Source of the DNA: an uncultured Eubacteriales bacterium
GTDB lineage: Bacteria > Bacillota > Clostridia > Christensenellales > CAG-1252
Direction of reading: 5' to 3'
Length of the DNA stretch: 61,740 nucleotides
NCBI GenBank assembly: GCA_902797685.1
Contig: CADBTQ010000071.1
Span: 1-61,740, forward strand
The notes beneath the pieces were generated by a model. That model was not told the origin of the DNA. It did not search any database and saw only the letters and a program-made list of their open reading frames with translations. This document shows positions 6,452 to 61,740 of the stretch, piece by piece (the first letter of the stretch is position 1; each line of letters starts with the position of its first letter). Both the position numbers and the translations under genes were made by a program.

Positions 6452-9400
6452 ATGTTGTCATTAGCGTTATCAGCCGTGTACATCTTCGTTCTGTACGCCG
6501 TGGTCGGCGCCCTTTTGGTCATTGGCGCAGCGTCCGTCGTCGGTACGGTCGTGGCGGTCAACAAAGCCAAAAAGCAAAAGCCCCAAGAGGAGCAAGCCAA
6601 GCAAGCTGCCGTCGCGCCCACTCAACCCAAAGCGGTAGAGCCCAAGAAAGAGGAGCAACCCGTCAAGGAAGAGGAGCCCCAAGAGGAGCAAGTCGAAGAA
6701 GCACCCGTCGAGGAAGCACAACCCGAGGTACAAGAACCCGTGGAAGAGCCCTTGCAAGAGGAAATGCAAGAGGAAGAAGGCGAGGAAGCGCCTATCGTTC
6801 CTCTCGGTTTGGCCGAAGAAGAGGAGCCGCAAGAGGAAGAGCCCCAAGACGGAGAGGATTATCATACCTTTATCCGCTACCTCAGGTCGTTTGAGTCGAG
6901 GATCAGACAATCCAACGACAAGACCAAAAACTACTACTCCATCCTCAAAAACACCCTGCTCTCTTACAAACGGGTACATGCTCGTTTGAGTTGGAAGAAA
7001 GAGTCCTTCCGTTTGGGACGCGAGCTCAAAGCGATGATGACCGTGCGCGGCAAGACTTTGTGCTTGTTCGTGGCGCTCGACCCCAACGAGTTTGATCAAA
7101 ACATCTATCATCAACGCGACTTTTCGGACAAAGCCACCTATCAGGAAGTGCCCATGATGCTTAGGGTCAAGTCGGATCTGGGATTGAGACGCGCCATCCG
7201 CATCATCGAGATCTTGATGGAGAGAGCGGGAGCCGTCGTCGATCCCAAAGCGGTCAGCGTGGATTACGTGCCCGCCTTCCCGTACGAAGACGATCCCACC
7301 CTATTGGAGATGGGTCTTATCCGTATCGTCGGCACCCGTCGTAAGGTCGTGATGCAAGAGGGCGAGACGAGAGAAGAAGCCATCGCGCGTATCCAAGAGG
7401 AACTATTGCAAAATGACGTGGAAGAGGACGAAGTGGACGTCGTCAGCGCCGAAGAACAAGCGGAAGAAGACGAGGAAGAGGGAGTGCAAGTCACCCTGTC
7501 TCCCGACGAGTTCCGCGACTTTATCGCGTACAGCCGTTCGTTCGACGCCAAATTGAGGCAAGCGAGCGACCTCACCAGAGATTTTTATAACGAGATCAAA
7601 AACAAACTCCTCTCCTATAAGCGCATCCACGACAGGATGAGTTGGAAGAGAGAGTCCTTCCGTTTGGGACGCGCTCTCAAAGCCGCTTTGACCGTGCGCG
7701 GCAAGACCTTGTGCTTGTTCGTGGCGCTCGATCCCAACGAATACGACCAAAATATCTACCATCAACGCGACTTTTCGGACAAGACGTCGTATAAAGACGT
7801 GCCCATGATGCTTAGGGTCAAGTCCCATTTGGGTCTCAAACGCGCCCTCCGCATCATCGAGATCTTGATGGAGAAGTCGGACGTTCAACTCGACTCCAAA
7901 GCCGAGAGGGTCGATTATCTGCCCGCTTTGCCTTACGAAGACGATCCCACCTTGCTCGAGATGGGTCTCATCAAAAAGGTCATTCGTCGCCGCCGTATCA
8001 CCGTACTCGAGGGCGAGACGTTGGAAGAGGCTGTCGAACGTACCCAACAGGAATTGTTCGCCAAGGACGTTGACGAGGTAGAGGAAGAGGAACTCGCCCA
8101 AGAGGAAGAGCAACCCGCCGAAGAAGAAACTCCCGAAGAGCCTATTCAAGAGGAAGCGGCGGAAGAAATCGCCGAAGAGCCTGTCCAAGAGGACACTCCC
8201 GCCAAAGAAGAAACGATCGAGGAGCCCGTCGAAGAAGAAACGATCGAAGAGCCCCAACAAGAAGTCGAGGAACAACCCGTGGAAGAACAAGCGGAAGAAG
8301 AGAGCGGGGATACGCTCGAGTCCGCTGTCGCTCCCCTCGGTATGACGGAAGAAGAACAACCCCAAGAAGAGGCGCAACCACAAGAAGAGGTTGAAGAACA
8401 GCCCGAAGAGGCGGAGCAATCGCAAGAGGGAACTCCCGCCGAAGAGGAGAAGGTCGAAGAACAACCCGTTGAGGAGACTCAACCCGAGGAAGAACAACCC
8501 GAGGAAGCGGAAGAGCCCAAGCAAGAAGAGGTCGAGGAACAACCCCAAGAAGAGGTTGAAGAAACGCCCGAGGAAACGGTAGAAGAAGCGCCCGTCGAGG
8601 AAGAATCGGTTGAGGAACGACCCCAAGAAGAGCCTATTCAAGAGGAAGAAGAGCAACCCGCCGAAGAGCCTGCCCAAGAAGAAGTCCCTGCCGAAGAGCC
8701 CACCAACGAAGACTTGGCGGACGAGTTGGACGTAGACGTCGAGCCCGTTCATGCGGAACAGGAACAACCCATTGAGGAAGAGCCCCAACAAGAAGAAGTC
8801 GAAGAACAACCCGAGGAAGAACAAGAATTGCCTGCTCAAGAAGAGCCTTCCAACGAGGAATTGCTCGACGAATTGGACGTGGACATCGAGCCCGCTAAGC
8901 CGCAAGAGCCCGCCGAGGAAGAACAAGTTGAGCAACAACCCGAAGAGCCTATTGAAGAGGAAGAGGCGCAACCCGAGGAAGAGAGCGAAGATACGCTCGA
9001 GTCCGCTGTCGCTCCCCTCGGTATGACGGAAGAGGCGCAACCCCAAGAAGAGGCGCAACCCGAAGAAGAACAACCCGAGGAAGAAAAGGTTGAAGAGCAA
9101 CCCGAGGAAGAAAAGGTTGAAGAACAAGCGGTAGAAGAAACGCCCGCCAAAGAGGAAAAGGCCGAAGAGCAACCCCAAGAGGAAGAGCAACCGCAAGAGG
9201 AGATCAAGGAAGAGCCTAAGCAAGAAAAGGCACCCGTGATCGGCGGTCAACCTCTCCCCCAAGGATTGTACGACGAAGTGCCCGAAGAGCGCAAGGAAGA
9301 GCCTCAAGAAGAACAACCCCAAGAGGAGCCCAAACAAGAGGAAGAGTCCCAAAAGGAAGAGTTGTCCGAGGACGAAAAAGCCCTGCAAGCTTTGATGGCG

Positions 9401-9988
9401 GAAGGAGAAGAAGAGGAAGCCGAGGAAGAGCGCAAGCGCAAAGAGGCGGAAGAAAAAGCCCGCCAAGAGGACGAAAACCGCGTACCCTTGGAGCAGATCG
9501 TTGCCGATCCTCGCTTTAACGACTTTACGATGTTGCAAAAGAAGTTGTTTGCCGCCACGTCCAACCAACGCTATCTGTACAGCGAACTCAAAAACACCCT
9601 GTTGTCTTTCAAGAAGGTCAAATGCAAGGAGAGCAACGCGGGCGACAGTTTCCGCCAAGGCGGCAGATTGATCGCGCGTATCACCCTCAACAACGACACG
9701 TTGCGCTTGCACTTGTGTCTCAATCCTTCCCAGTACAACCCCAGACAGTATCACCATTACAGTTTGGAGAAGTACGCCGCTTACAAGGAAGTGCCCTTTA
9801 CCTTGGACGTGACCGACAGCGATCAACTGCAAACGGCGGTGGGTTTGATCAACGACGCCATGAGCAGCAAATACCTGTTGTACGTGGACAACAAGCGCGA
9901 ATACGTCGACTACGCCGCTTTGTACACCTTGGGACAAGACGGCTCCATCCCCGAGCAACCCAAATCCGCCGAGGAAGAAGAGGAATAA
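6452..9988 (+). CDS. Membrane-anchored acidic protein with three copies of an unrecognised cytosolic domain
   Basis: Residues 1-35 are one hydrophobic segment followed by KAKKQK, so the rest should face the cytoplasm. Most of the 1,178 residues alternate between E/Q/P-rich low-complexity linkers (roughly 36-135 and 520-1010) and three copies of a ~145-residue domain (about 136-293, 350-510 and 1014-1167). Copies 1 and 2 are very similar: LLSYKR.H.R.SWK.ESFRLGR, VRGKTLCLFVALDPNE, YHQRDFSDK, VPMMLRVKS and a terminal LLEMGLI. Copy 3 is diverged. The same domain ends the 2,132-residue surface protein at 47.3 kb. I know no function for it. A DTLESAVAPLGMT segment occurs twice in the linker and matches a dispersed DNA repeat. 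nadE follows after 3 nt. Confidence 0.9.
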   Translation: MLSLALSAVYIFVLYAVVGALLVIGAASVVGTVVAVNKAKKQKPQEEQAKQAAVAPTQPKAVEPKKEEQPVKEEEPQEEQVEEAPVEEAQPEVQEPVEEPLQEEMQEEEGEEAPIVPLGLAEEEEPQEEEPQDGEDYHTFIRYLRSFESRIRQSNDKTKNYYSILKNTLLSYKRVHARLSWKKESFRLGRELKAMMTVRGKTLCLFVALDPNEFDQNIYHQRDFSDKATYQEVPMMLRVKSDLGLRRAIRIIEILMERAGAVVDPKAVSVDYVPAFPYEDDPTLLEMGLIRIVGTRRKVVMQEGETREEAIARIQEELLQNDVEEDEVDVVSAEEQAEEDEEEGVQVTLSPDEFRDFIAYSRSFDAKLRQASDLTRDFYNEIKNKLLSYKRIHDRMSWKRESFRLGRALKAALTVRGKTLCLFVALDPNEYDQNIYHQRDFSDKTSYKDVPMMLRVKSHLGLKRALRIIEILMEKSDVQLDSKAERVDYLPALPYEDDPTLLEMGLIKKVIRRRRITVLEGETLEEAVERTQQELFAKDVDEVEEEELAQEEEQPAEEETPEEPIQEEAAEEIAEEPVQEDTPAKEETIEEPVEEETIEEPQQEVEEQPVEEQAEEESGDTLESAVAPLGMTEEEQPQEEAQPQEEVEEQPEEAEQSQEGTPAEEEKVEEQPVEETQPEEEQPEEAEEPKQEEVEEQPQEEVEETPEETVEEAPVEEESVEERPQEEPIQEEEEQPAEEPAQEEVPAEEPTNEDLADELDVDVEPVHAEQEQPIEEEPQQEEVEEQPEEEQELPAQEEPSNEELLDELDVDIEPAKPQEPAEEEQVEQQPEEPIEEEEAQPEEESEDTLESAVAPLGMTEEAQPQEEAQPEEEQPEEEKVEEQPEEEKVEEQAVEETPAKEEKAEEQPQEEEQPQEEIKEEPKQEKAPVIGGQPLPQGLYDEVPEERKEEPQEEQPQEEPKQEEESQKEELSEDEKALQALMAEGEEEEAEEERKRKEAEEKARQEDENRVPLEQIVADPRFNDFTMLQKKLFAATSNQRYLYSELKNTLLSFKKVKCKESNAGDSFRQGGRLIARITLNNDTLRLHLCLNPSQYNPRQYHHYSLEKYAAYKEVPFTLDVTDSDQLQTAVGLINDAMSSKYLLYVDNKREYVDYAALYTLGQDGSIPEQPKSAEEEEE
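8309..8346 (+). repeat. In-frame copy of repeat B in the acidic linker
   Basis: GATACGCTCGAGTCCGCTG... ending CTCGGTATGAC encodes DTLESAVAPLGMT in a linker otherwise built of E, Q and P. Confidence 0.75.
8989..9027 (+). repeat. Second in-frame copy of repeat B in the same gene
   Basis: Identical over at least 37 bp to the copy 681 bp upstream and encodes the same DTLESAVAPLGMT block. Confidence 0.75.
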
Positions 9989-9991
9989 TCA

Positions 9992-11896
9992 ATGAAACAA
10001 GGATTTATCGAAGTTTGCGCCCACTCCCCTTTGTTGAGAGTGGGCGACACTAAATATAACGCGCAACTGCTCGCCCAAACCATCTGCGAGGAAGCGGACA
10101 AGGGCGTGAGGATCGTCGTCACGCCCGAGTTGGGTTTGACCGGCTACACCGTGGGGGATCTACTCCTGCAATCCACCCTGCTTGCGGGCGCGATGGACGG
10201 GCTCGAGTACGTTGCCGAATCTACCGCCGATTGCGATTGCTTGGCGATAGTGGGTCTTCCCCTTACGGTGGACGGCAAACTCTACAACTCCGCCGCCGTA
10301 CTCCTGCACGGCAAGGTGCTGGGTGTGATCGCCAAAGGCAATATCCCCACGTACAGCGAGTTTTACGAGGGGCGCTATTTTGCCCCCGCGCCCAAAGAGA
10401 CTCGCACCATCCGCATTTTGGGACAAGAAGCGCCCTTTGGCGGGGCGATCGTGTTCCGCTGCGCCGATCTGCCCGATCTTGCTGTAGGCGTGGAGATATG
10501 CGAAGATCTGTGGATCCCCAATGCCCCGCACGCCAAGTTGGCGAAGGGCGGCGCGACCATCTTGTGCAATCTATCCGCCAGCGACCAAGTGGCGGGCAAA
10601 GCCAATTACCGCCGGCTGTTGGTGCAATCGGCGTCGGCAAGGTGTTTGGCGGGCTATATCTACTGCGACGCCCCCACCACCGAATCCACCCAGGACGTGG
10701 TCTTTTCGGCGCACGATATCATCGCCGAATCGGGCTATATCATGGCGGAGAGCAAACCCTTCGGCTTGGGACGCGCCAAGACCGAGATCGACGTCGCAAG
10801 GCTCAACTACGAGCGCAGACGAGTCAGCACGTTCACCACGTCCAACGAGGGGATCACCTACGTGGACTTTGCCTTTGACGGATTGAGCGAGGCGACCTTG
10901 ACGAGAGAGGTATCCCCCTATCCCTTCGTGCCCGACGATCCCGCCGCTCTTAGCGAACGCTGCGAGGAGATACTCGAAATGCAAGCGCACGGCTTGGCGA
11001 GACGGATCGAGCATACGGGGGCAAAATGTATGCTCCTCGGCGTATCGGGAGGGCTTGACAGCACGCTCGCTTTGTTGGTGTGCAAGCAAGCCTGCGAACT
11101 GTTGGGACGTCCTTTAAGCGATATCCATGCGGTCACTCTCCCCTGCTTCGGCACCACCGACCGCACCAAAAACAACGCGTTGGATCTCTGTCGCGCCTTG
11201 GGTGTACCCTGCCGCGAGATCAACATCGGGGAATCGGTCGCCAAACATTTGGCGGACATCGGACACGACCCCGCTGCCCGCGACGTGGCGTACGAAAACG
11301 CCCAAGCCCGCACCCGTACGATGGTGCTGATGGACTTGGCAAACCAAGAGGGCGGTTTTGTGGTCGGCACGGGCGATCTCAGCGAATTGGCGCTTGGTTG
11401 GTGCACCTACAACGGGGATCAAATGAGCATGTACGGGGTCAACGGCTCGGTGCCCAAGACTTTGATCCGCCACCTCATCGCGCACGTGGCAAGTCGGTCG
11501 GAAGAGGCGCTCAAGAGGGTGCTACTTGACGTGATCGACACCCCCATCTCCCCCGAACTGTTGCCCGCAAACGGGGGGCAAATCGTGCAAAAGACCGAGG
11601 AGATCGTGGGCAAGTACGACCTCAACGACTTTATCCTCTACTATATGATGCGTTGGGGATTTAGCCCCACCAAGATCGACAGACTGCTGTCCGTCGCCTA
11701 TCCCTCTATCGATCGAGAGGCGCGGAAAGAGGCGCTCAAGCGCTTCTATACCCGCTTTTTCTCCCAACAATTCAAGCGCAATCCCATGCCCGACGGCGCC
11801 AAAGTGGGTACGGTCGCCTTGTCCCCCCGCGGGGATTGGCGTATGCCCTCGGACGCCACCGCAAGGATCTGGCTGGACGAGATCGAAGAGTTGTAA
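9992..11896 (+). CDS. nadE: Glutamine-dependent NAD+ synthetase
   Basis: This 634-residue enzyme makes NAD+ from deamido-NAD, using ammonia released from glutamine. Its N-terminal nitrilase-type glutaminase domain shows the Glu-Lys-Cys triad at E46 (TPELGLTGY), K115 (VIAKGNIPTYSEFYEG) and C170 (GVEICEDLW). The C-terminal synthetase domain has the ATP-pyrophosphatase P-loop LLGVSGGLDSTLALL and the GTGDLSE segment. Length is normal for the two-domain type. It is cotranscribed with the preceding acidic membrane protein; the pairing has no obvious biochemical reason. pnuC at 37 kb supplies NAD precursors to the same pathway. Confidence 0.97.
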   Translation: MKQGFIEVCAHSPLLRVGDTKYNAQLLAQTICEEADKGVRIVVTPELGLTGYTVGDLLLQSTLLAGAMDGLEYVAESTADCDCLAIVGLPLTVDGKLYNSAAVLLHGKVLGVIAKGNIPTYSEFYEGRYFAPAPKETRTIRILGQEAPFGGAIVFRCADLPDLAVGVEICEDLWIPNAPHAKLAKGGATILCNLSASDQVAGKANYRRLLVQSASARCLAGYIYCDAPTTESTQDVVFSAHDIIAESGYIMAESKPFGLGRAKTEIDVARLNYERRRVSTFTTSNEGITYVDFAFDGLSEATLTREVSPYPFVPDDPAALSERCEEILEMQAHGLARRIEHTGAKCMLLGVSGGLDSTLALLVCKQACELLGRPLSDIHAVTLPCFGTTDRTKNNALDLCRALGVPCREINIGESVAKHLADIGHDPAARDVAYENAQARTRTMVLMDLANQEGGFVVGTGDLSELALGWCTYNGDQMSMYGVNGSVPKTLIRHLIAHVASRSEEALKRVLLDVIDTPISPELLPANGGQIVQKTEEIVGKYDLNDFILYYMMRWGFSPTKIDRLLSVAYPSIDREARKEALKRFYTRFFSQQFKRNPMPDGAKVGTVALSPRGDWRMPSDATARIWLDEIEEL

Positions 11897-16099: not shown

Positions 16100-17782
16100 T
16101 TACTCCACGTCGTCCTCTTCCTTGCTCTCCTCTTTGGTCAACTCTTGGTTGTCGAACTTTTGAGGTTTGGCGCGGAGAGCGTTGATATCCACGATGGGTT
16201 TGCGGTTTTTGCCGGGGATAAACAGGATCATATCCAGCACGCCGATCACCACGATCACGCCCGCCAACACGATCAACAGTATCGCCCACCAAGCGAGACC
16301 GCCTTGCGCCGCTTCGATATCCACGATCCTCACGCCGTCGGGGGTGTACACCATGGTCAAAGGCTCGGCAAGACGGGTACCCGCTTCGCCCGAAGCCTTG
16401 GAAGAATACAAGGCGACGTAGGTGTCTTTGACCGCATAACGCTTGTTGCCCGAGGTGTAGAACTCGTCTTTGTCGTTGAGGTCGGCAAGACGGTAACCCG
16501 CGTAATAGGTAATGCCGTCCGCACCGCCCAACGCAAAGCGCACCACTTCCACGTCTTTGAGGTCGTCGGCGTGATAGGTATTGCCCAACACCTTAAAGGA
16601 GATGGCTTGATCCACCTTGGTCTCCGCCTTGGTGATGGCGATGTCGTCCACCACGTAGCTGACCCCGTCGACCACGGTGTAGGTGGTCAAAGACAACCTG
16701 CCTCTAGTGACTTTGAGATAGCCGTACACGGGACACTCGGCACGAGTGGCGACCCCGCCTTTTGAGGCGTACTCGGGTTTGAGTTCCAACTTGCCGTCCG
16801 CGAAGTAGTCGGACAAGATCTCTTGATTGGCAAAGTCCTTGCTGCGATCCTTGAGCGACACTTCGTCCGAATAGATGTAGTTGTAGAACTTGTCGCCCAT
16901 GGTGCCCATATTGACAAAGAGCACCCCCTCGGGGTCGATGGCGGCGCCGGTCGCGTCGTACGAGGGCGCGGTCGTTTGATAGGTATGCCCGATCACCTCG
17001 TCTTCTTCGTCCAACACTTCGGTCACACCGCTGACGTACTTGCTGACCGAATAGGTGTGGTCGTGTCCTTGCAGCACCAAGTCCACCCCGTACTCCACCA
17101 AGATAGGCGTGAGTTGGGCGCGAATGGCGATGACGTCGGTATCGAAAGCGTGGCTGCCCGCGGTAAAGGGACCTTTGTGCAAGCACACCACGACGAACTC
17201 GACGCTCTCGTCCGCACGGGCTGCCGCGAGATCCTCTTCGAGCCAGTCGATCTGCTCGTCGGACAAGGCGTTGTCCTCGACCAGATCGTTGGTGTTGAGG
17301 TAAACTATGTGCATATTTTGGTAGGTGTAACTGCCGTAATAGCCGGTAGGCTCGTCCACGTCTTTGTCCGAAATGGTCACGATGGAGGAGATACAGAATG
17401 CATTGTCCTCGTGATTGCCCGCCACCGTCTCAAACGAGTGCTGGGCGTACACTTTGTCGTGTCCGTCGAGCAACCAACCCCATTGGTTGATATTTTCGCC
17501 CTTGTCCACGTTGTCGCCCATGCTAATGACGGTTTGGGGCTTGCCCTTGGACAAAGCTTCCAACATATTGGGCAAAGACAGTTGATAATTGCGCTCTACG
17601 CTGCCTTGGATGTCGGCGATGGCGAGATACTCCACCCCGCCCTCGTCGGGCAACGCCTCGAAGGAATACACCTCGGTCCAACCCGTGCGGTTGGAGCCCA
17701 ACCGATAGTAATAGGTCTTGCCGGGGGTAAGTCCTTGGAGCACGTAGTCGCAGCGGTTGTAGTCGCGGTAGGCATAGGTCAT
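16100..17782 (-). CDS. Purple-acid-phosphatase-like domain with C-terminal membrane anchor (3' half of a split gene)
   Basis: This 560-residue frame starts in the middle of a fibronectin-like PAP N-terminal domain (CDYVLQGLTPGKTYYYRLGS, WTEVYSF) and continues into a calcineurin-like phosphoesterase: ADIQGS, GDNVDKGE, AGNHE, CLHKGPF and GHDHTYS. It ends with a hydrophobic helix (LAWWAILLIVLAGVIVVIGV) and a charged cytoplasmic tail. It has no signal peptide. It is in the same frame as the upstream 1,030-residue protein, separated by TAA and two codons. I therefore read it as the second half of one exported protein, reached by readthrough or inactivated by a nonsense change. Translation alone from its ATG would leave the enzyme cytosolic. 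Confidence 0.8.
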   Translation of the reverse strand: MTYAYRDYNRCDYVLQGLTPGKTYYYRLGSNRTGWTEVYSFEALPDEGGVEYLAIADIQGSVERNYQLSLPNMLEALSKGKPQTVISMGDNVDKGENINQWGWLLDGHDKVYAQHSFETVAGNHEDNAFCISSIVTISDKDVDEPTGYYGSYTYQNMHIVYLNTNDLVEDNALSDEQIDWLEEDLAAARADESVEFVVVCLHKGPFTAGSHAFDTDVIAIRAQLTPILVEYGVDLVLQGHDHTYSVSKYVSGVTEVLDEEDEVIGHTYQTTAPSYDATGAAIDPEGVLFVNMGTMGDKFYNYIYSDEVSLKDRSKDFANQEILSDYFADGKLELKPEYASKGGVATRAECPVYGYLKVTRGRLSLTTYTVVDGVSYVVDDIAITKAETKVDQAISFKVLGNTYHADDLKDVEVVRFALGGADGITYYAGYRLADLNDKDEFYTSGNKRYAVKDTYVALYSSKASGEAGTRLAEPLTMVYTPDGVRIVDIEAAQGGLAWWAILLIVLAGVIVVIGVLDMILFIPGKNRKPIVDINALRAKPQKFDNQELTKEESKEEDDVE

Positions 17783-17788
17783 GTTGAG

Positions 17789-17791
17789 TTA
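17789..17791 (-). other. In-frame TAA splitting a double phosphoesterase gene
   Basis: Minus-strand reading is GGT ATG ACT TAA CTC AAC ATG ACC TAT. The same frame is open on both sides, for 1,030 codons before and 562 after the stop, with the fibronectin-like domain interrupted at this point. Confidence 0.85.
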
Positions 17792-20700
17792 AGTCATACC
17801 CAAGTCCATGGTGGGATACTCGATACGGATATTGTCGCCCGCCACCGCGATTTGGGTGTACAGTCTATCCGCCGCGTCCCCCCATTGGATAAAGGTCTCG
17901 TGTTTTTGGTTGCTGAGATCGTCTTCGTCCACGTCGGTCACGTCCACGTCAAAGTGGGTCCACCATCTCAACGCCTTTTGGGTGGTATCCAATTTGCCGT
18001 CCGAGCCCACCACGTTGGTCATGGTGATCATGGAAGGCACCATGCCGTTGGCTTTGGTGGGAACGACGGTCAACGCGTCGCTGCCGTCCGATAAGCGATA
18101 GTAGGTGTGCACCACTCCGTCCACCGTGAAGTTCGTTGCGTCCAAAGGAGCGGGCGTCACGTTGAAGAACCCGCGTTTGAAGGCGACGCTGTCCTCGGTA
18201 GACAGCACCACGAAGGGGAATAGACTGCCCGCTTGAAGCTTGGCTTGATCCCAACCGATGCCGTCGGGGCTGTCGTCGCGGATCATGGACTCCAACACGT
18301 AGCGACCGTAATTGCCCAAGTTTTTGCAAAAAGCGGTGGTGACGTATTTGTCAAGCAATTCGGCTTTGATCATCAAAGTGATCGTGGGATAGCGGTCGAT
18401 CTTGTCGAGGTAATCGGACGCGATACCCAAGTATTTGGAGATATCTCTCCCCACGAGACCGTTGATCACGTCCAACATGATACCCGAGGTCTTGACCCCG
18501 CCGTTGTCGTCGATCAGACCGATCCCCCTGAGAATGCGGGGCAAGGAGCGGATCAAGTTGCGCAAACTGCTGATATCCGCGTATTTCTTGATGATATTGC
18601 CCACGTCGATCATGCCGTTTGCAAACTTGAGTTCGAGCAAACTCGCGCCGTTTTCGCTCAAATCAAAGCCCTTGCCGTTCGCCACGTCCGCTTTGGTGAC
18701 GGGGGCGGCGTCTTCGTCCACTCTGACGTACTCCACGTCTCCCCAATAGATGGGGGCGTTGAGCAACACTTCCAACTGAGGCATCACGCCGCGATAGATC
18801 AAGTCCTCGATCATGCGCACGAAGTCCCCGTTGTCAAGCGCGTTGAGCATGGGCAGCAAATTGTCGGCGATATAGTCCCCGTGAGCGCCCACCAAGTGCG
18901 CGCCATAGACCTGCCACAAAAGATCGCCCAAGGTCAGTCCGCCTTGGGATTTGCCGTAAGAGAAGTCGAACTTGAGGATATAATCCACGAAGTCCTCGGC
19001 AAAGTCGATCAAGCCGTAGCCCGCTTGGGGCGCGTCCGCCATCGTGAACTCGGTGCCGTCCGCATTGGGGATAAAGGGCACGAAATCCATGTCGGCGAGT
19101 TGGTCGATCAAATCGTTGAGGAGTTGGTACACGCCGTCCATGCTGCCGCCGGCAAGACCCGCGGTCATGGAGCGGATACGATCGTACAGCCCGTCGTTGA
19201 CGTAGCCTTTGATCATATTGCCGAGCATATTGCGGAGCCCTTTGCCCAAAGCGACGTCGATGCCGACGTAAGAGTCGCCGTCCATCTCGTATTCGGTACT
19301 CATCGCCACGCTGCCGTCCGCTTGCACTCTCGGCAACTTATAGCGGAACACGTCCACCCCGTCCAACTTATCGTTGAAGTCGGTAAAGTTGACGTGGGAA
19401 GCCACGTCTTCCGAATAGGCGCCGTCGGTGTACCAAGTTTGCTTGATCGCCAAGTCGCGCCAACCCGAACCCATACTCGCCATGGAGCCGGTCTCGAAGT
19501 CGTACAGGATGTTGCCCGATTGCGAAACAAAGTTTTCGATATCCATGGCGTGTTGGTGACCCGTAAAGGTATAACGGATACCGTGGTCCGCCAAGTTGGA
19601 AGCGACCTGTTCCCAGTTGTCGTAAGTAAACAAACTGATGACCTCGTCTTCGGTGTCAAAGTGAGGCAGAATGTTGATATGTCCCAAGCACACCACCAAA
19701 TTGCCTTGCTCGGCGTCTCGGTGGGTGGCGAGCGAGTCGAACGCCCACTTGAGCATATTGTTGAGAATGATACCGCCCGTGGTCTCGTCCCATCCGTCCG
19801 AGGACAGCATCGCCATATTGGTCTCGTCCTCTTTGAGCGCTTTGAATCGACGGCTGTCTCCGTCAAAACCCACGACGGTCACGCCGTTGAGCCTGGCGAT
19901 ATAACTGCACGCGCCGTGACGGCTGTATTGGGCGGTAATGCGGAAGTCTTTGTCGCTTGCGTTGTAATCTTCCACCGCCTGTGCCATGTCGGCGCCGCCT
20001 TGTTCGAGAGTCCAAGCGTTGAGACCGCCGCCCGAGAGGACTTTGTACTCGCGATCATAGACGTATCTATGCTCGGGGTCGAGTTCCTCCCCCACCAACA
20101 CCAAGGGCTCGTCCAATAATACGGGAGTCTCGGACAAAACCGTGTCGTCGTCGTACCAGAAGGGGGACTCGTAGAAAAACTCCAACTCGCAGCCGTCCGC
20201 CATACCGCAGGTAGGGAGATGTTTGCCCTCTTTGCGCAAAGGACAGTTGCAATAGCCGAAGTCGGAGAAGAGGGTGACGAACTCCAAGTTGGTGGTGGTA
20301 CGCACCCCCGTCTTTTTGAGGGAAGCGAGATACGCTTGCTTTTGTTCGGCACTCATCCCCCAAAACTCGGCGTACTCGTCGGCGTTATCGGGGTTGGGCA
20401 TAAAGGAGCCCGCTTTTTGGTTGTAGATGTCGTGGTTGCCGGGGATGGCGAAGAATTGGAATCCCTCGTAACCCTCGATCGCACGGATCTTGGCGGTGTA
20501 CTCTTTGAGTACCGAAGCCACCCACATGGTGTTGGCTAACTCGCCGTTGCTGGTGAGATCGCCCGTCAAAAAGACGTACATGGGGGCGTCGCCCGCTATC
20601 GCTTGGGCGTAGATGTCGTCAAGGGCGGTGCGGGTCAACTCTTGGGTCTCCCCCAACATTTTGCCGCTGGCGATACTGCCCGAAGCGTAACTTTGGGAAT

Positions 20701-20881
20701 AGGGATTGCACCACTCCTCGATCATGACGTGGATATCGGACATCTGCGCCAGTCTGACGGTGCGGCTGTGTTCCACTTCCGCCTTGCCCTCGTCGGCAAA
20801 CGCCAAGCTCACGCCCAGCATCGACCCGACCACGGCGACAACCAAAACCACGATCACAATACTCCAAATGCTCTTTTTCAT
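17789..20881 (-). CDS. Large secreted metallophosphoesterase (5' part of a split gene)
   Basis: A signal peptide or anchor (residues 1-30) precedes a calcineurin-like phosphoesterase with D49/H51 (QMSDIH), GDLTSNGE near 107, GNHD at 148-151, a CLGHIN block and TGHQHAMD. These are the metal ligands of the binuclear metallophosphatase fold. A cysteine-containing insert (CNCPLRKEGKHLPTCGM) follows the first half. The final third has no recognised fold until it enters the strands of a PAP-type fibronectin domain at the very end, which is cut by the stop codon. It lacks the membrane anchor carried by the downstream half. The substrate is unknown; extracellular phosphate or nucleotide scavenging is a family-based guess. 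It follows gpmI on the same strand. Confidence 0.85.
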   Translation of the reverse strand: MKKSIWSIVIVVLVVAVVGSMLGVSLAFADEGKAEVEHSRTVRLAQMSDIHVMIEEWCNPYSQSYASGSIASGKMLGETQELTRTALDDIYAQAIAGDAPMYVFLTGDLTSNGELANTMWVASVLKEYTAKIRAIEGYEGFQFFAIPGNHDIYNQKAGSFMPNPDNADEYAEFWGMSAEQKQAYLASLKKTGVRTTTNLEFVTLFSDFGYCNCPLRKEGKHLPTCGMADGCELEFFYESPFWYDDDTVLSETPVLLDEPLVLVGEELDPEHRYVYDREYKVLSGGGLNAWTLEQGGADMAQAVEDYNASDKDFRITAQYSRHGACSYIARLNGVTVVGFDGDSRRFKALKEDETNMAMLSSDGWDETTGGIILNNMLKWAFDSLATHRDAEQGNLVVCLGHINILPHFDTEDEVISLFTYDNWEQVASNLADHGIRYTFTGHQHAMDIENFVSQSGNILYDFETGSMASMGSGWRDLAIKQTWYTDGAYSEDVASHVNFTDFNDKLDGVDVFRYKLPRVQADGSVAMSTEYEMDGDSYVGIDVALGKGLRNMLGNMIKGYVNDGLYDRIRSMTAGLAGGSMDGVYQLLNDLIDQLADMDFVPFIPNADGTEFTMADAPQAGYGLIDFAEDFVDYILKFDFSYGKSQGGLTLGDLLWQVYGAHLVGAHGDYIADNLLPMLNALDNGDFVRMIEDLIYRGVMPQLEVLLNAPIYWGDVEYVRVDEDAAPVTKADVANGKGFDLSENGASLLELKFANGMIDVGNIIKKYADISSLRNLIRSLPRILRGIGLIDDNGGVKTSGIMLDVINGLVGRDISKYLGIASDYLDKIDRYPTITLMIKAELLDKYVTTAFCKNLGNYGRYVLESMIRDDSPDGIGWDQAKLQAGSLFPFVVLSTEDSVAFKRGFFNVTPAPLDATNFTVDGVVHTYYRLSDGSDALTVVPTKANGMVPSMITMTNVVGSDGKLDTTQKALRWWTHFDVDVTDVDEDDLSNQKHETFIQWGDAADRLYTQIAVAGDNIRIEYPTMDLGMT

Positions 20882-23391: not shown

Positions 23392-23567
23392 GAGAGGAGA
23401 GAGCGGGTGTCCTAACGAGTGAGCGATGCCCAACGTACTCCTTGTACATGACATGGTATTGCCCAAGGGCACGCTAGATACGCTCGACTACGCTCGGTAT
23501 GACTGCGTGCGCGTTCCGATAGCGCAAGCGAACGACTGCACGTCGCCGTATTTTTTTGCTCAACACG
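23392..23567. repeat. Dispersed hairpin element, copy 3, interrupted by a second repeat
   Basis: The segment starts with GAGGAGAGAGCGGGTG and contains GTACTCCTTGTACATGAC, matching the copy at 23.6 kb. The 3' end (CGAACGACTGCACGTCGCC) appears only after ~65 bp of foreign sequence centred on 23470-23518. Residual arms are only GTTGAG/CTCAAC, so it looks old. It lies in the pgk-tpiA gap. Confidence 0.7.
23470..23518. repeat. Short palindromic repeat B, copy 1 (nested)
   Basis: It contains GGCACGCTAGATACGCTCG and CTCGGTATGAC, and matches a second intergenic copy at 35279-35330. It sits inside a copy of the larger hairpin element, so it arrived later. Confidence 0.75.
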
Positions 23568-38925: not shown

Positions 38926-41202
38926 TTATTCCTCGGTGCCCTCGGGGGTTTGTCCCTCGCCCTCGTCGGGTTGCGGATCGGTATTGTTTCCCTCGTCAGA
39001 TTGGGGATCCTCTGTATTGTTTCCCTCGTCGGGGGTGACTTCCTCTTCGGGAGAGGCGCCGCCCACTTGTACCGTCACGGAAGCGCCTTCCTCGTAATAG
39101 CCCTTAGTGAGGGGGCTGACCTTGACCGAGTCGCCTTCCAACCCCGCAAAGAGGTAGGTGGTCTCGGGGTCGGTCGCCTTGACGGACAAGGTAGCGACTT
39201 CCTCGGTGCCGAGGTAAAGGGTCAACGAATAGTAGTAGGCAAGTCCGCCCTCGTTGGCGATCGTCACGTTGATCCCGTCCGCTTGGCGGGTCGCCACGGC
39301 GGAGATGGAAGTCGAAGTCGTATAGACGTAAGACTTGAGCGCCTTTTCGCTATCGGTGAAGTTGCCGCCCGACTTGGTGGCGTAGACGGACACGTTGTAG
39401 GTGCCCACCGCCTTGATCAGATCGACGATATCCAATTCCACCGCCTCATCCTTGGCGTCCACTCGGCGCTCCGTGCCGTTGACCGAGACGACGAACATGC
39501 CCGCGTGTTCCACGGGAGCGATCTTGACCAACACGTGCTCCTTGCCCTCCGCGTCCACGCTCGCTTCGATGCCGAACACGGGGGTAGCCAGTTGCACGAA
39601 GTAGGACACGCCGACCGAGGTCGAAGCGCCCGCGACGTACACTTTGGCGTTGTCGGAGTAGGGTTTGACGGTCACGGTATAGTCGCCGGGATCCAATTCG
39701 GGCAAGGTGTATTGGGTGTTGTCCCCTTTGCCTTTGGCGACCGTAAACGCCTCGGCGATGCCCGACACTTCCACGTTGTAGCCGTCGGCATGATTGACGT
39801 GCGAAATGACCAACACTTGTTGATTGTTGTAATTGGCGACGAAGACTTGGGGCGCTTCGAGATATTGCACGAAGTAGCAGTTGGCGACTTGGGCGTATGC
39901 GCCCACCGTGCTTTCGGGATAGATATACAATTCGCCCGCGCCGGCGACTTCGCCCGCTTTACCGTGCACGACCACTTCCTTGCCGCCCTCGATCTTGACG
40001 ACTTCGCCCAACACGTTGGCGGTGGCGTTGCCGCTTAAGGAGACGACGCTGTCGATCTTGCCGTCTACGGTCAAATCTCCGTCTACCGCCACGGCACCCG
40101 CTTTGAATTTGCCTTTGATCTCGGCGGTAGCCAGCGTCGCCGTACCCGTCACGTTGAAGTCGCTGTATAAGGTGCGGTTGCCGCTAAGGGTCAGATCTCC
40201 TTCCACGATGACCTTGCCGCCGTTTTGCGGTTTGCTCCAAATGGTCTTTTTGTAGCCCACGAAGCCGTCGCCCGCCATCGTCAGATTGCCCTTGACTTCC
40301 AACGTGTGGTCGTTGAGATCGAGGTTGACCCCGCCCAAAGAGAGATCGCCGTCCCAAATGACGTCGTTTTTGAAGATATACTCGGTTTTTTTGCCCTTGG
40401 CGACCGCCTTGGCAAGTCCGTCCGCCGAATGGATAAACGCCACGTTGCGAGTGGTGACGAAGTGCCCCGTCGCCAGGCCTGCGCCCAAAAGCACGATCAA
40501 AGACAGCACCACGACCAATACCACGTGCTTTTTGAACCAAGCGCGGGTCTTAGCGGCGCGTAGTGCCTTCTTGCGCGCTTTTTCGGCGGCGGCTTCCGCC
40601 TCTTGTTCGGCTTTTTGCTCGTCGGTCAGTTTCGGTTGTTCGCCCTCGGCTTGGGGCTCCTCTCCCGTCATGCCGAGGGAAGCGTCAGCGGACTCGAGCG
40701 TATCTTCTTCCTTGGTCATACCGAGGGAAGCGTCAGCGGACTCGAGTGTATTTGGGCTCTCCTCCTCTTGCGCTTGTTCTTCCTCGAGTTGCTCTTCCTC
40801 TTGCTCGGGGGCGGGCTCTTGCTCGCCGTCCGACCAATATACGGGTTGCGCCTCCTGCTCGACCAGCTCAGCGGGAGTTTGCTCACCGTTCTGCGCGGGA
40901 GTAGGCTCGATCGTAGCCTCTTCCTCTTGCTCGACGCCGCGCTCCTCTTCGTCGGGGGCAATCTCCTCTACCCCGGAGCCGTCCGCTTGTTCGCTCTCTT
41001 GAGGGGCTTGCTCTACCGTCGTATCGGCGGCGAGTTGCTCGCGCTCTCCTTGCGCGCCGAAAAGGGGCTCGCCCTCGTAACGGGGAGTTCCGTTCTCTTG
41101 CTCTTGCCACAGTTCCTCTTGCTCGGCTACGTTCTCCTCGCGGACAAAACCTTGGGGATCGTAGTTTTGCGGTCTATTTTTATGCTTATGTTTTTTACTC
41201 AT
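38926..41202 (-). CDS. Acidic single-pass membrane protein with extracellular beta-helix and Ig-like region
   Basis: A 758-residue protein with N-in/C-out topology: a ~220-residue acidic E/Q/P-rich cytoplasmic part, a Lys/Arg-rich stretch (KARKKALRAAKTRAWFKKH), one helix at ~226-246, then the outside part. Residues ~255-420 alternate short strands with G and N (GDLSLGGVNLDLNDHTLEVKG, GDLTLSGNRTLYSD), which suggests a right-handed beta-helix. Later segments (VFVANYNNQQVLVISHVNHADGYNVEVSG) resemble repeated Ig/Fn3-like domains. The cytoplasmic part contains two tandem TLESADASLGMT blocks derived from a DNA repeat. Function unknown; the acidic linker style matches the protein at 6.45 kb, though the recurrent domain is absent. 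Confidence 0.8.
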   Translation of the reverse strand: MSKKHKHKNRPQNYDPQGFVREENVAEQEELWQEQENGTPRYEGEPLFGAQGEREQLAADTTVEQAPQESEQADGSGVEEIAPDEEERGVEQEEEATIEPTPAQNGEQTPAELVEQEAQPVYWSDGEQEPAPEQEEEQLEEEQAQEEESPNTLESADASLGMTKEEDTLESADASLGMTGEEPQAEGEQPKLTDEQKAEQEAEAAAEKARKKALRAAKTRAWFKKHVVLVVVLSLIVLLGAGLATGHFVTTRNVAFIHSADGLAKAVAKGKKTEYIFKNDVIWDGDLSLGGVNLDLNDHTLEVKGNLTMAGDGFVGYKKTIWSKPQNGGKVIVEGDLTLSGNRTLYSDFNVTGTATLATAEIKGKFKAGAVAVDGDLTVDGKIDSVVSLSGNATANVLGEVVKIEGGKEVVVHGKAGEVAGAGELYIYPESTVGAYAQVANCYFVQYLEAPQVFVANYNNQQVLVISHVNHADGYNVEVSGIAEAFTVAKGKGDNTQYTLPELDPGDYTVTVKPYSDNAKVYVAGASTSVGVSYFVQLATPVFGIEASVDAEGKEHVLVKIAPVEHAGMFVVSVNGTERRVDAKDEAVELDIVDLIKAVGTYNVSVYATKSGGNFTDSEKALKSYVYTTSTSISAVATRQADGINVTIANEGGLAYYYSLTLYLGTEEVATLSVKATDPETTYLFAGLEGDSVKVSPLTKGYYEEGASVTVQVGGASPEEEVTPDEGNNTEDPQSDEGNNTDPQPDEGEGQTPEGTEE
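40662..40760 (-). repeat. Two tandem in-frame copies of repeat B
   Basis: Minus-strand copies, each GATACGCTCGAGTCCGCTGA... ending CTCGG(C/T)ATGAC, encode DTLESADASLGMT and NTLESADASLGMT. Related copies lie at 8309-8346 and 8989-9027 in the protein at 6.45 kb. The outer halves match the intergenic repeat at 23.5 and 35.3 kb. Confidence 0.75.
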
Positions 41203-47253: not shown

Positions 47254-50200
47254 TTACTTGATAAACGCAGTCTGCTTGATCTTGATCAAGCCTTTTTCGA
47301 TCAAAGCCTCGTCCGTTTCGTACTCGAAGGAGTAGGTCTCGTTGTGTTCGAGCCCCTTGACGGCTTGCGCCTTTTCCATGGCTTCGTCCAAAAGTTGCAG
47401 GGCGTACTTGAGGGCGCGATCGCTCTTGATCTTGACCTTGGTGGGCACTTTGGCGTACTTGGAATGCTCGCTCTCGTCCTTGGCGTGGTATTTCGCCGCG
47501 ACCTCGTTGGGATCCAAGGCGAAGTAAGCGAACACCGTTTTGTTGCGGATACGCACGCGCATCACGGGCGCGCGACCACGATTGAAGGTCTCGTAGCCCC
47601 AAGCTTGCCTGTCGCCGATCTTCTTGTAGGACAAAGCGGCGTTTTTGAGGGCGGTATAGCGCGCGAGGACCACGGGGTCGGCTTGGATCAATCTCGCTTG
47701 CATACTGCGGTCTTTGAACTCGCGCATGCCCGTTTCGGGATTGATAAACACGTTGTTTTCCCCTTCGTCCTCTTCTTCCTCTTCCGCTTCGTCCGCCACA
47801 AGGGCTGCCGCTACGGGCGCTTCCGTGGGTTCTTCGGCGGGAGTCTCTTCGGGGACTTCTTCCTGAGCGCTCTCTTCTTGAGACGCTTCCTCTTGGGGTT
47901 GTCCCTCCAAAGGCTCTTCCTCTTGGGCAGGTTCTTCCTGCATTTCTTCGACGGGGACTTCCTCTTTGGCTTCCTCTTGCGCGTCGTCTTTGGCGGTCTC
48001 CTCTTTGGGATCGCCGTCTTCGTCGTTATCTTTCTTTTTCTTGCGAGCAAGAGCGAGGATCAAACACACGATGATGACGACCAAAACGATGATGATGGCG
48101 ATCAGGATCCAGAACCAAATGGGCATCGCTTCCTTTTGATCCGAAGTCGCCACGCCGTAGATGGAGAAGTGATTGGTCTTAAACACCATGTATCCGTCCG
48201 CGTCCAACGTGCCGTTCAACACTTCCACTTTGCCTTGGTCGTTGATGTACACGGGATGCAGATCCAATCCTCTCGCCACCTCGGGTACGAAGATTTTGAT
48301 CTCGTATTGATCGTTGGGATTGATGGTATCGCTCGTGGTGATCTGATACACCGCCACCAAGTGGGCGTTGCCCTCGTTGAGAGCGCTGAAGTCCAACGTC
48401 TTGGGGAGTTGGAAGATGTGCTCCACCTTGAAGTGATTGGCGTTGAGACCGCCGGGACGGGAGACGACGACCACCAGTTGACCCTCTTCGTCCTCGTATT
48501 CCACGATATCCTTGCCGCGTTTGATAGTCAACAAAGCGGGCGCTTTGGTCCACACGGGAGGATTGTAGTGGGCGGGATCGTCGGACGCCAACACGGGGCG
48601 CACTTTGTACTCGCCGACAAGAGTGGGCTCGAGCACTTTGCGGTCGTGAGCGTCGAAATACTCTACGCCGACCATTCTCACGCCCTCGGGCAGATCGTCA
48701 ATGGTAAACTCAAAGGTCTCGCCCGACTCCTCTTCCACGACGACGTGAGAGTAATGCCACGAAGCGCCAGACAAGTCGTAATCGCCCTTGCGGATAGACC
48801 AAGCGAGGTTGCGGTCGATGTGGTTGCCGTAAATATAGTTCTCCATGCCGGAGATAGCAAAGGAAGCGGTATAGTTGCCGACGTCGTCCGCGCTGACCGT
48901 GCCGGAGTAGGTCAAAAAGTCTTCCCACTTGTCGTCGCCGATCAGTTGAGGCAGGTTGACAATCTCCACTTGGTGCGCCAAGCCGTCGTACACAAAGCTC
49001 GAACGATCGATCACGTAGTTCCAGTTGGCGCGCCCCATATCCAAGTTCAAGGGACGGATGCGCACTTCCACCGAAAGGGATGCGGTATCGCTCAAGTCGC
49101 CCGCCACGGCGGTCACGACCACGAGATAGGTACCGTTGTCGGTCACGTTGCGCACGGTGAGGGTGGCTCCGTTGGTATTGATCTGCCTGCCGTCTTTGCT
49201 CCACTCGTAGGTGTAGGTCACTTCTCTATCCAAGTTGATGGAAGGAGTGATGGTGATCGTACGCGCCACGCCGTCGAAAGCGTCCACGCTGATATTGCCA
49301 CTGGACGACAAAGTCAGGATCAACACGTCGGGCGGAATGATCTTTTCCTCGATGGTCAAGGTACGGGTCTCGTCAAAGGACGCGATCTCGTAGTTGGCGG
49401 TGTCCTCTTGGGTCAGCTCGGCGCTGATGAGATAGACGCCCACTTCGGTGGGCAACTCGCTCGCTTCTTGCCCGTTGTACAACACCTTTGCGGTCACGCC
49501 CACGGGGAGTCCCAACAACTCGAAGGGATTATAAGCGTCCTCTTCGATGATGGTGACGTCGTTTTGATTCCAATGCGCGCCGCTTAAGTCGTATTGGGCT
49601 TTGGCGATGGACCACTCGAGGTCGTCCACGTCCCAACCTTCGAAAATATAGTTATCGGACGTACCCAAACTTACTTTGGCGACGTATACGCCCGCGTCGG
49701 TGGCTTTGAGGTCGCCCGAGTAGGTCAAAGGCAGGGTATCGTCACCGATCAAGGTGACGGAGTCCAAAAACTCCAATCCCACGCTCTTTTCGGTGCCGTC
49801 GTAGACCAAGAACCCCACCATCTCCCAATCAACGGCGGACACATCCACTTTAAGGGGCTCGATCTTCCACTCGATGTCGCCCAAGAGCGCGAGGTCGCTC
49901 AAATCGTAGTTGTCGGATGCGCTCGCCTCAAAGGAAGCGGTGTAAGAGCCTACCGCGGTGGCTTTGTTGCCGAGATAAGAAACGGTCACTTCGTCGGCGC
50001 CGATCAGTACGGGCAAAGCGTTGAGTTCCACTTTCTGTTCCTGTCCGTTGTAGGTATAGGGCACGGTGTAGTTCCAGGCGACGGTGGATATGTCGGGTTT
50101 GAAGGGATTGAGCACGAAGTTCAACGGCTTTTTGATTTCGGAGATCACCGATTCGCCCTTGTTGGCCCTGACGACCAAAGTATAGTTTTGGCTCGCCACG

Positions 50201-53200
50201 TCCACCCAGGTAAAAGCGACTTCGTCTTTGACCTTGTCTTCGCCGTCGTACCAAGCCATGGTATAGGTCAACCACTCGGCGGGGTCGGCGACGGAAACAT
50301 TGTAAGAGTGTTGTTGTTGATCGTAAGTAGCGCTGTACACGCCCTCGACCAGTTCAAATCCCTCGATCACTTCGTTGAGGTCGATCTCCACGGCTTTCAA
50401 CACGACGGTGGCGGCGCCGATAGAGGGATTGTTGTGGTTGCGGTCCGCACCGGTGATGGCGGCGGTCACCTGATAGGTGCCGGCGAGATAGGAATGATCG
50501 CCTTGATACGTGATCGTCGCGCTGAGCCCCGTGGGCAAACCGCTTATCGCCAAGCCGTATTCCTGACCCGCTTTGACGGTGAGGACACCGTTTTCAAAGG
50601 TGTAGCCGTCCGCCGTATCCTCGGTCACGACCCAAGAGAGATCGGCGGGGATGTCGGCTTTGAGGATTTCCCAATACAAGTCCATGTCGGACAAACAGCT
50701 CGCGTCGTAGTTGGAACTGGCGGGAGCGCTTGCTTGGGCGCGATACTCGCCCGCGTCGGTCGCCTTGTTGCCCGTATACTCGACGGGGATAAACGAGGGC
50801 ACGCCATAAAGCCACATTACCCATTCGTTGCCGTTGTAGGTGACGTCCCACAAGTAGTCCCGCTCGTAGTTCCATTCGAGGTCGAACTCGTCGAGCACGA
50901 AGGGGTTGATCTTCCACTCGAGGTCGCCCACCGTCCAACCGTCGAACACGTAGTTGGGGTTGGCTTGCAGTGTGGCTTTGGCGGTATAGGTACCCGCATC
51001 TTTGGCGCGAGTCACGCCCGCATATTGCACGTTGAGCGTGTCAAGCCCGAACAGCTCGACTTCGTCGATAAAATCGAGGGACACGCCCTGCTCGTTGCCG
51101 TTATAGGTGAAGGGTTCGTCGGGGTCGTAGGTCCACTCGATATCGCTCACGTCCACGTGGGCGGGCAATATCTTCCACTCCAAGTCGCCCAACGTGTAGT
51201 TGATGATCTCGTAATCTTCGGCATGCTCCTCGTCCACCGAGGGGACGGCGGAAGCGACGTAAACACCCGCGTCGGTCGCTTTGTTGCCGACGTATTCAAA
51301 GATGATGAAGTCGTAGTCGGGGACGATCACCTTGACTTGCTTTTCGGTCGCGTCGTAGCTGAAGGGATTTTCGTAATCCCAACGAGCGTCTTTGCAGTCC
51401 ACGTAGATCTTGTGCAGGCTGACTTCCACCTCTTCGGTTTGACGAGCCACTTGATAGGTGGGATCGTAGGGATCCGAAGCAAGCGCAATAGCGTAGTAGC
51501 GACCGCTTTGGTCACGGTGACTGATGGTCAGAGTGGCTTGGGTCTCCCCCTCGAGCAGCACGAAATCGCCCTCCTCGCTACCCTCGGCGAGGAAATACCA
51601 CTCGTACGTCCAATCGGCGTAGGACGCGTAATCGTCCACGACGGTAAACACGATCTCTTCCCCGTCGAACGCTTTGTCCAATTCGCCCTCGGTCTCCAAG
51701 GTCACTTCGTACTCGATCTCTTTGACGGCGTACAACTTGACGTCGTGATCGGGCACTTCGTCCACGCGGTTGCCCTCTTCGTCCACCCAGTACAGCACGT
51801 CGTAGCCGTCCACGTCCTCGGGACGGGCGAATTTGGCGACGTCCACACCCTTGGCGAGCAAGCCTTCCACTTGCAATTCGTCTTGCACGTAGTAGCTCAC
51901 TTTGACCAAGTCGGGCACGGTGAGATGGAGATCCCAAGCGAAGTCGAATCCGTCTTCCTCAAAGAAGGTGGCGATCCAAGGACCTTTGGACTTGGAGATG
52001 CGGGTAAAGATCTTTTCGTAATCGAAATAATAGCTGTCCGCCCAAGCAAACTCGCCTTCCCCTTGGTAGAGGTCGAGCAAAGTCAGGTTGCGATAAGCAT
52101 CGGGCACGTGATTATAGGCACGATTGACGTAGCCTACCAGTTTGGTATAGTAGTCGGCATAGCGAGCCAACTTGTCAAAATAAACGTCGAGGTCGCGGTC
52201 GGCGTAACGCTCGAAGTCGAGATAATGATAGAGGAGGTCGACGTCCATGTGGGCGAAATCGATGCGATTGAGCAACGAGTCCACTTTGGCTTTGGCTTTG
52301 TTGTAGAGGGAGTAGTTGGTGGGATCCACCTTGAGATAACGGACGATGAAGTCTTGCACGTCGTCGGTGGTGTAATTGTTGGCAAGATCCAGCAAGCGGC
52401 CTACCACCTTTTCCACGTTTTCCTTGGTAAAACGAGCGATGTCGATATAGTCGCAAAGGTGAGATACCATCGCTTCGGCGTTGCCGAGGTTGGCGAAGAT
52501 GGCATTGAAGTCCAATTCCTTAGCGGTGTCGATCCAATCTTGCAAAGTCATTTCGTTGACCAAGTCGACCCAATCTTGGGGGGACTCGCTTTGCACGTCC
52601 ATGTACTTGTCGCGGATACGTTGGGGAACTCTGTCCGAGTTGAGCACCTTGGCGATGGCTTTGGCGGTCAACTTGGGCATGACGGCGTCCACGTACAAAG
52701 AGTGCTCGTCGTACGACATGGTGACGTGTTCGTCAAACAGACGAGCGGCTTGACGGATGCGGCCTTCGTGACCGATCACTTGCAATACTACCGTAAACTC
52801 GCGGGTACCGAAGTCGGTCACCACGGCGACGTCGTAGGACAGTTTGAGTTCGTCCATGTTGGCGATCTCGGCGGGACGAGGCAGCGACTTGATCAAGGAC
52901 ACGATCGCGTCCTTTTTGAAGGAACCGGTCTGATATACGGCTTTGCCGTTGATCTTGAGGGCGACGATGGCGTTGAGCATATCCTCGATGGTGATCTCGA
53001 CCTCTCCGCCCGCTTTTTCCACCTGCTCCACCAAGTTGGTGACCTTGGTCTCCATCTTGGCCGCCAACTCTTCGCCGCGTTCGGGCTCGTCGGCGTAGAC
53101 CTCTTTGATCAGTTCGGTCGCCACGTCGTTGAGCTTGGCGGAGATCTCTTCGTAAGTGTACTCGGTCTTTTCGGCGATCTTTTGCTTGATAAAAGCGTCG

Positions 53201-59694: not shown

Positions 59695-59698
59695 ACGC

Positions 59699-61354: not shown

Positions 61355-61356
61355 AC

Positions 61357-61740
61357 TTACGCCTCCGGGGTCGGCTCCACGGCGGAAGACGACTCGTCTT
61401 CGTCCATGATCGAGCGGAACTTCCGCTCCAAGTCTTCCCTCGCGCCCTCTTGTTTGAGATCCACGATCTCGCGCAAAGTGCCGTCTTTGATGATGGCGAC
61501 GCGGTCGCAAAGACGAGCGACCAAGTCGATGTTGTGCGAGGAGAAAAACACCGTGTTGCCCTTGTCGCAATGGGCGCGCATACGGTCGATGATCTCAAAG
61601 ATGGATTGGGGATCCAAGCCCACCATCGGTTCGTCCAGCACCCACAATTTGGGCTCGTGGATCAACGCCGCGATGATACAGATCTTTTGTTTCATGCCGT
61701 GGCTGTAACCCATGATCTGACGATCCAACGCCTTTTCCAA
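61357..61740 (-). CDS. ABC transporter ATP-binding protein, C-terminal part (5' end outside window)
   Basis: Only the last 127 residues are present. The ABC signature appears as YSHGMKQKICIIAALI, the non-canonical form common in ABC-2 ATPases. Walker B/D-loop is LWVLDEPMVGLDP and the switch His is in VFFSSHNIDLV. Walker A lies beyond the window edge. It is 2 nt upstream of the permease gene, so the two form one exporter. Confidence 0.93.
   Translation of the reverse strand: MEKALDRQIMGYSHGMKQKICIIAALIHEPKLWVLDEPMVGLDPQSIFEIIDRMRAHCDKGNTVFFSSHNIDLVARLCDRVAIIKDGTLREIVDLKQEGAREDLERKFRSIMDEDESSSAVEPTPEA

Follow-up and report, generated by a model that had tools for sequence, protein, structure and literature searches.

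Introduction

YjbR proteins have been described as soluble or as fused to other cytosolic modules, and they were proposed to bind DNA from their likeness to the double wing of the MotA C-terminal domain (PMC7641849). Fra/YdhG carries an acidic ridge on its N-terminal helices and first strand (PMC4934914), and frataxin likewise has an acidic ridge on its N-terminal helices and first strand (PMC10855754). On DUF5655 (PF18899), on MBG-domain surface proteins and on uL15 domains in surface proteins, our literature search found nothing; it covered open-licence papers only, which makes these absences weak.

Giant surface proteins rich in repeats are common among uncultured Clostridia, and we know of no function described for their inner ends. 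We analyzed a stretch of 61,740 nucleotides from such a bacterium (contig CADBTQ010000071.1, the whole stretch being referred to as the window), which encodes two predicted membrane proteins with a common recurrent domain. Here we place this domain in a fold class, follow it through related genomes, and consider what it may bind.

Results

The first of the two window proteins (6452-9988, plus strand, 1,178 residues, from open reading frame and hydropathy) consists of an N-terminal transmembrane (TM) helix, acidic linkers rich in E, Q and P, and three copies of the domain. The helix spans about residues 6-24 (6467-6523, plus strand) and is followed by the K-rich stretch NKAKKQK. Copy 1 lies at 6848-7330, copy 2 at 7496-7978 and copy 3 at 9518-9973, all on the plus strand. 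The second protein is a surface protein of 2,132 residues (47254-53652, minus strand) with a signal-like N-terminus, extracellular repeats, a C-terminal TM helix at about residues 1849-1867 (48052-48108, by hydropathy) followed by ARKKKK, an acidic linker of about 103 residues with a net charge of -34 (47740-48051), and one copy of the domain (47275-47739), all on the minus strand. Both TM helices are followed by K/R residues, and the domain side, including the C-terminus of the three-copy protein, is therefore predicted to be inside the cell in both cases.

A whole-genome search with copy 1 detected copy 2 (69% identity, E 2.5e-75), the copy of the surface protein (38%, E 7e-25) and copy 3 (34%, E 1.3e-16), and brought the genome to seven copies: four in the window and one on each of three other contigs (E 6e-36 to 2e-23). 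Judged by these E values, the four window copies are homologous, and chance likeness is excluded. Copy 2 is a recent tandem duplicate of copy 1. Copy 3 belongs to a separate subtype orthologous to the C-terminal copies of relatives, with which it clusters in a domain-only tree (support 1.00). The original prediction had placed four copies in the window, each behind a TM helix and an acidic linker, and all of them were found near the predicted places and in that setting. One shared domain is real, but its length is closer to 160 residues than to the predicted 145 or so, and two of the motifs given as shared are not kept in copy 3, which is without the final GLI and has CLNPSQ in place of ALDPNE. 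The picture of three beads on a string stands for the three domains on acidic linkers, though not for even spacing: the linkers of the three-copy protein measure about 103, 55 and 505 residues, with net charges of -23, -15 and -184, respectively, the longest occupying 7979-9517 (plus strand).

The gene of the three-copy protein follows a gene for a DnaB_2/DnaD-type protein (PF07261; 4557-6290, plus strand), and an NAD(+) synthase gene (9992-11896, plus strand) begins 3 bp after it; this order is kept in two relatives. The three-copy gene is not adjacent to a surface gene. The surface protein gene adjoins the gene of a second surface protein (53807-56926, minus strand) with a C-terminal TM helix and a Flg_new repeat, and this pair is kept in at least nine other genomes, across several families. 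Upstream of the conserved pair lie a Big_2 surface protein gene (56923-59694) and an ABC permease-like gene (59699-61570), both on the minus strand, in a region (56923-61570) that is conserved only partly in relatives. Elsewhere in the window, an exported protein of 1,030 residues with a metallophosphoesterase-like start (17789-20881, minus strand; QMSDIHV...TGDLTSNGE) adjoins a second metallophosphoesterase-like frame (16100-17782). Within the three-copy protein, the acidic linker contains two occurrences of a peptide, TLESAxAxLGM, and of the corresponding DNA repeat (8312-8344 and 8993-9025); two more lie in the acidic N-terminal part of a membrane protein encoded at 38926-41202 (40669-40749). 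Since a shorter related stretch near 23480 (23479-23508) lies outside called genes, the acidic linkers may have captured a dispersed repeat.

To which family does the domain belong? The original prediction had expected no Pfam match, and in fact none of 22 domain copies reached the cut-off of any Pfam or NCBIfam model. The same scan gave no sequence match to MmcQ/YjbR (PF04237), and PF18899 matched one of the 22 copies (E 0.0034, below the gathering score) and none of the others; a PF18899 search of this genome returned nothing at E 1e-5, and a sequence search of the PDB found no relative of the domain. AlphaFold2, run with alignment input, modeled copy 1 with a pLDDT of 95.3 and a pTM of 0.88, as a helix followed by four strands, a short helix, a strand and a helix. 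With this model, Foldseek retrieved from the PDB YdhG (2oc6), YjbR (2fki) and a YdhG-like frataxin (9t2w) with probabilities of 0.96-0.97, E of 0.04-0.06 and TM-scores by target of 0.53-0.56, and no other comparable match. The best of these was YdhG 2oc6 (probability 0.97, TM-score 0.53 by target); the scores of YjbR 2fki were moderate (probability 0.97, TM-score 0.43/0.55, E 0.058). Against viral structure models, a DUF5655 model was matched with a probability of 1.00, E of 2.7e-3 and a TM-score of 0.51 by query.

Profile comparison pointed in the same direction. A profile of 107 domain sequences matched nine DUF5655 sequences over the full DUF5655 length (probability 98%, E about 1e-13), and hhalign gave probabilities of 98-98.8% over 108 columns. 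Since E-values from comparing two profiles do not have the meaning of database E-values, controls were run: 20 column shuffles and reversed profiles reached at most 1.8% in hhalign. The match was confined to the nuclease-linked subgroup of DUF5655 (98.8%), while a second DUF5655 subgroup did not match, and two DUF1801-like sequences showed no sequence-level match to the domain (probability 0.3). The domain profile also retrieved DUF5655 proteins of distant Clostridia (E 1e-7 to 1e-9). We conclude from these profile comparisons and the predicted structure that the domain belongs to the YdhG/YjbR fold class and is divergently related to DUF5655, without being a formal member of that family. The original view that it resembled no named family is thereby replaced by that of a remote relative.

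The domain was found in all 6 genomes of the genus, all 20 of the family and 110 of 248 sampled from the order (36 of 115 genera), many of the sampled genomes being incomplete. A class sample of 391 genomes contained ten positives, seven of them inside the order; the three outside, all of them DUF5655 proteins, scored weakly (E 8e-7 to 1e-8). Since these three were the only positives outside the order, the domain is, as far as its sequence distribution tells, essentially absent elsewhere and thus a lineage-specific branch. The many clostridial members that had been foreseen were indeed found, within one clostridial order. No copy was found on the viral contigs scanned, and a single-protein scan of genome contigs gave one locus and was weakly informative.

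The arrangement of domain genes was examined in 60 loci fetched from high-scoring matches, in which 56 domain genes were classified; genes were longest-ORF calls and TM helices were hydropathy predictions. A TM helix lies ahead of the domain in 39 of the 56, with linkers that are net negative in nearly all: in ten the domain sits behind the TM helix at the end of a giant protein (fused), in eleven the protein has an N-terminal TM helix and is encoded directly downstream of a surface gene (split pair), and eighteen have a TM helix in another gene context, proportions that are approximate because of naive gene calls, hydropathy-based topology and the choice of loci from the best matches. The original expectation of a TM helix in every member does not hold, as 17 of the 56 have none ahead of the domain by hydropathy, at least two of these being frames truncated at a contig end; such proteins may be soluble. 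In the split pairs, the upstream surface gene ends with a TM helix and a short basic tail, and no inner domain. Stop and start codons overlap by 4 bp (ATGA type) in six split pairs, and in most of the remaining pairs the two genes are no more than 40 bp apart. Of 51 domain genes, 15 had a surface gene upstream on the same strand, vs. 4 of 413 other genes (Fisher p=1.5e-12).

In the domain-only tree, the surface copy of the window groups with six fused orthologues (0.97). Other fused giants fall in separate places of this poorly resolved tree, which suggests that fusion to giant proteins occurred several times. Overall, there is good support for placing the domain at the cytosolic end of surface-protein systems, with an orientation predicted from hydropathy and charge. 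The idea that it forms the inner side of a connection to surface repeats gains strength from its recurrence with giant surface proteins, as a fusion or in the gene directly behind. The new observation is that the domain marks the cytosolic end of these proteins in either form, in the same chain or on a protein encoded directly downstream.

Several domain proteins carry further modules. Two domain proteins of this genome end in a uL15/L27A domain (PF00828) that scores above cut-off, and a derived profile detected a C-terminal domain of this type in twelve relatives. Loci bearing it include L116 (G000:C83, residues 799-874), L115 (G000:C26, residues 298-374), L131, L134 and L163, and surface proteins of 4,143 to 5,335 residues are among the twelve; automatic annotation might label such proteins as ribosomal protein L15. 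At L133, one protein (7537-10620, minus strand) joins two domain copies to a C-terminal EAL domain (E 1.6e-17). The EAL match begins at profile position 23, and thus is without the N-terminal catalytic part, and no TM helix precedes the domains; judging by sequence, it is possibly a degenerate c-di-GMP receptor. A DUF1508-type C-terminal module occurs at L114, L120, L123 and L128, above cut-off at L123 and just below it at L120. At L114 the domain gene is followed by spoIIIAA. At six loci (L136, L139, L140, L143, L144 and L151) RNase J adjoins domain proteins whose N-terminal parts are long and either acidic or coiled; SpoIVA, D-3-phosphoglycerate dehydrogenase-like and U32 peptidase-like genes are present at several of them as well.

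An operon with a parallel layout, here named c6/c9, was found at L115, L118 and L129. It encodes, in this order, a domain-uL15 protein without an N-terminal TM helix, a surface protein and the protein c9; the surface and c9 genes are also present at L119. The c9 protein has an N-terminal TM helix, an acidic linker and two domains. The second passes the Pfam cut-off for YjbR, and the first (model pLDDT 72) matched YjbR 2fki in Foldseek with a probability of 1.00 and a TM-score of 0.61. No sequence-level relation was found between the c9 domains and the window domain; they have only the fold class in common. Because c9 carries YjbR-type domains, the position behind the surface gene appears to be filled here by another branch of the fold class.

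Across 107 copies, K/R residues are conserved at alternating strand positions (42/44/46, 63/67 and 106/108), opposite the hydrophobic face, and K27 and K34 are invariant on the first long helix, while few columns of the alignment are strongly acidic. The exposed sheet face, deduced from strand alternation and not from coordinates, would thus be conserved as basic. In TM proteins the domain has a median net charge of about +8, and in the other proteins one of +7, while DUF5655 relatives range from -7 to +3. Outside the domain, cytosolic segments of the TM proteins have a median of -37. The basic shift is a new result and specific to this family, unlike its DUF5655 relatives, and therefore points to an anionic ligand.

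Discussion

In our judgement, there is somewhat more to be said for than against the reading that this DUF5655-type domain is a cytosolic foot, which anchors giant surface proteins in one clostridial order through an anionic partner. The surface protein would cross the membrane once. Its inner end would come in two versions, either as an acidic flexible linker and a domain in the same chain, or as a separate protein that is anchored by its N-terminus, bears one to three domains and is translated immediately after it. With the conserved basic face of its beta-sheet, the domain would grip nucleic acid, an acidic linker or lipid, and the surface proteins would thereby be anchored or clustered at defined intracellular sites. 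The reading is supported by the homology of all copies, the fused giants, the split pairs, the enrichment of upstream surface genes, the charge contrast, the alternating K/R residues and the c6/c9 parallel, and from these we infer anchoring as the function of the domain, binding by its sheet face and a physical interaction within the split pairs. It is weakened by the absence of a TM helix in 17 of 56 genes (some of them truncated), by their position next to other genes such as RNase J, by the three-copy gene of the window, which does not adjoin a surface gene, and by the lack of correlation between domain charge and linker charge.

If the partner is anionic, what could it be? One candidate, possible but on balance unlikely, is nucleic acid, with the domain as a membrane-tethered binder of the "double-wing" kind that ties the inner membrane, together with the giant surface proteins, to the nucleoid, mRNA or ribosomes. 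The basic open sheet face and its family-specific charge fit such a role, which is made attractive by the DNA binding proposed for the fold relative YjbR (PMC7641849), by the C-terminal uL15-type ribosomal domain of twelve relatives, and by the neighbors: RNase J beside soluble members in six loci, and DnaB_2, a "replication initiation and membrane attachment" gene, ahead of the three-copy gene. All of this is indirect, however. The neighbors may reflect conserved gene order only, and DUF5655 lacks such a basic character and is without a known ligand. A c9 domain does match MotA-DNA complexes, but weakly (probability 0.5), and it is a different domain with a model pLDDT of 72. The wider proposal, that throughout the order basic double-wing-like domains, some with uL15, connect the giant surface proteins at the inner membrane with nucleic acid or ribosomes, is decidedly unlikely. 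The main alternative to nucleic acid as a partner is electrostatic self-association, in which the basic domains bind acidic linkers, their own or those of a neighbor, and gather membrane proteins into a submembrane network. Domains of about +8 beside segments with a median of -37, and one linker of -184, would suit this arrangement, as would the one to three beads per chain and the net negative linkers of nearly all TM members. The predicted correlation between domain and linker charge was nevertheless absent across 39 proteins (Spearman 0.05), and soluble members without long linkers are also basic (median +7), so that we regard self-association as doubtful.

Two further readings assign the domain a different kind of role. 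In signal transduction, the inner domain would control a cytosolic response once binding on the outside had been relayed to it by the single TM helix. The single-span architecture, the EAL domain at L133 and the DUF1508 or uL15 modules on other tails are in line with this, yet most members are without a kinase, cyclase or effector, the L133 EAL domain is without its N-terminal catalytic part, the L133 protein shows no TM helix before its domains, and long disordered linkers relay conformational change poorly. We consider such an output role highly unlikely; the sensing function of the original prediction has thin support, from one protein with an EAL domain. That the domain is an iron or metal chaperone like frataxin or YdhG (Fra) is barely credible, even though YdhG 2oc6 and the YdhG-like frataxin 9t2w are its best Foldseek matches in the PDB. 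The invariant K27/K34 on the first long helix, the basic strands and the scarcity of strongly acidic columns speak against it. Since the first long helix and the strands bear K/R and the acidic ridge is missing, we rejected iron binding of the frataxin kind.

The domain gives the inner ends of giant surface proteins a recognizable module, for which a fold class and a likely binding face can be named and whose genes are arranged cleanly, fused or translationally coupled. What holds or controls such surface proteins from inside thereby becomes a testable question wherever a member of the order is in culture. If the nucleic acid or ribosome reading were true, it would mean a direct physical link from the outer coat of the cell to its genome or translation machinery.

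Compared with known systems, the domain is closest to DUF5655, which it resembles in profile over the full DUF5655 length and in predicted fold. It differs in a C-terminal segment of about 35 additional residues, in its basic face and in its membrane and acidic-linker setting, whereas the matching DUF5655 subgroup is found in nuclease-like proteins beside restriction genes. With MmcQ/YjbR (PF04237) it has in common the alpha-beta double-wing/CyaY-like fold class, and with YdhG-like/DUF1801 proteins and the frataxin homologue Fra an alpha/beta sandwich fold. The uL15/L27A domain (PF00828), absent from the two window proteins, is a second module beside the domain in some of its relatives, and in c9 a true YjbR domain fills the equivalent position behind an N-terminal TM helix and an acidic linker. 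For most of the DUF5655/YjbR-like superfamily no ligand is known, and the domain extends this superfamily to a membrane role.
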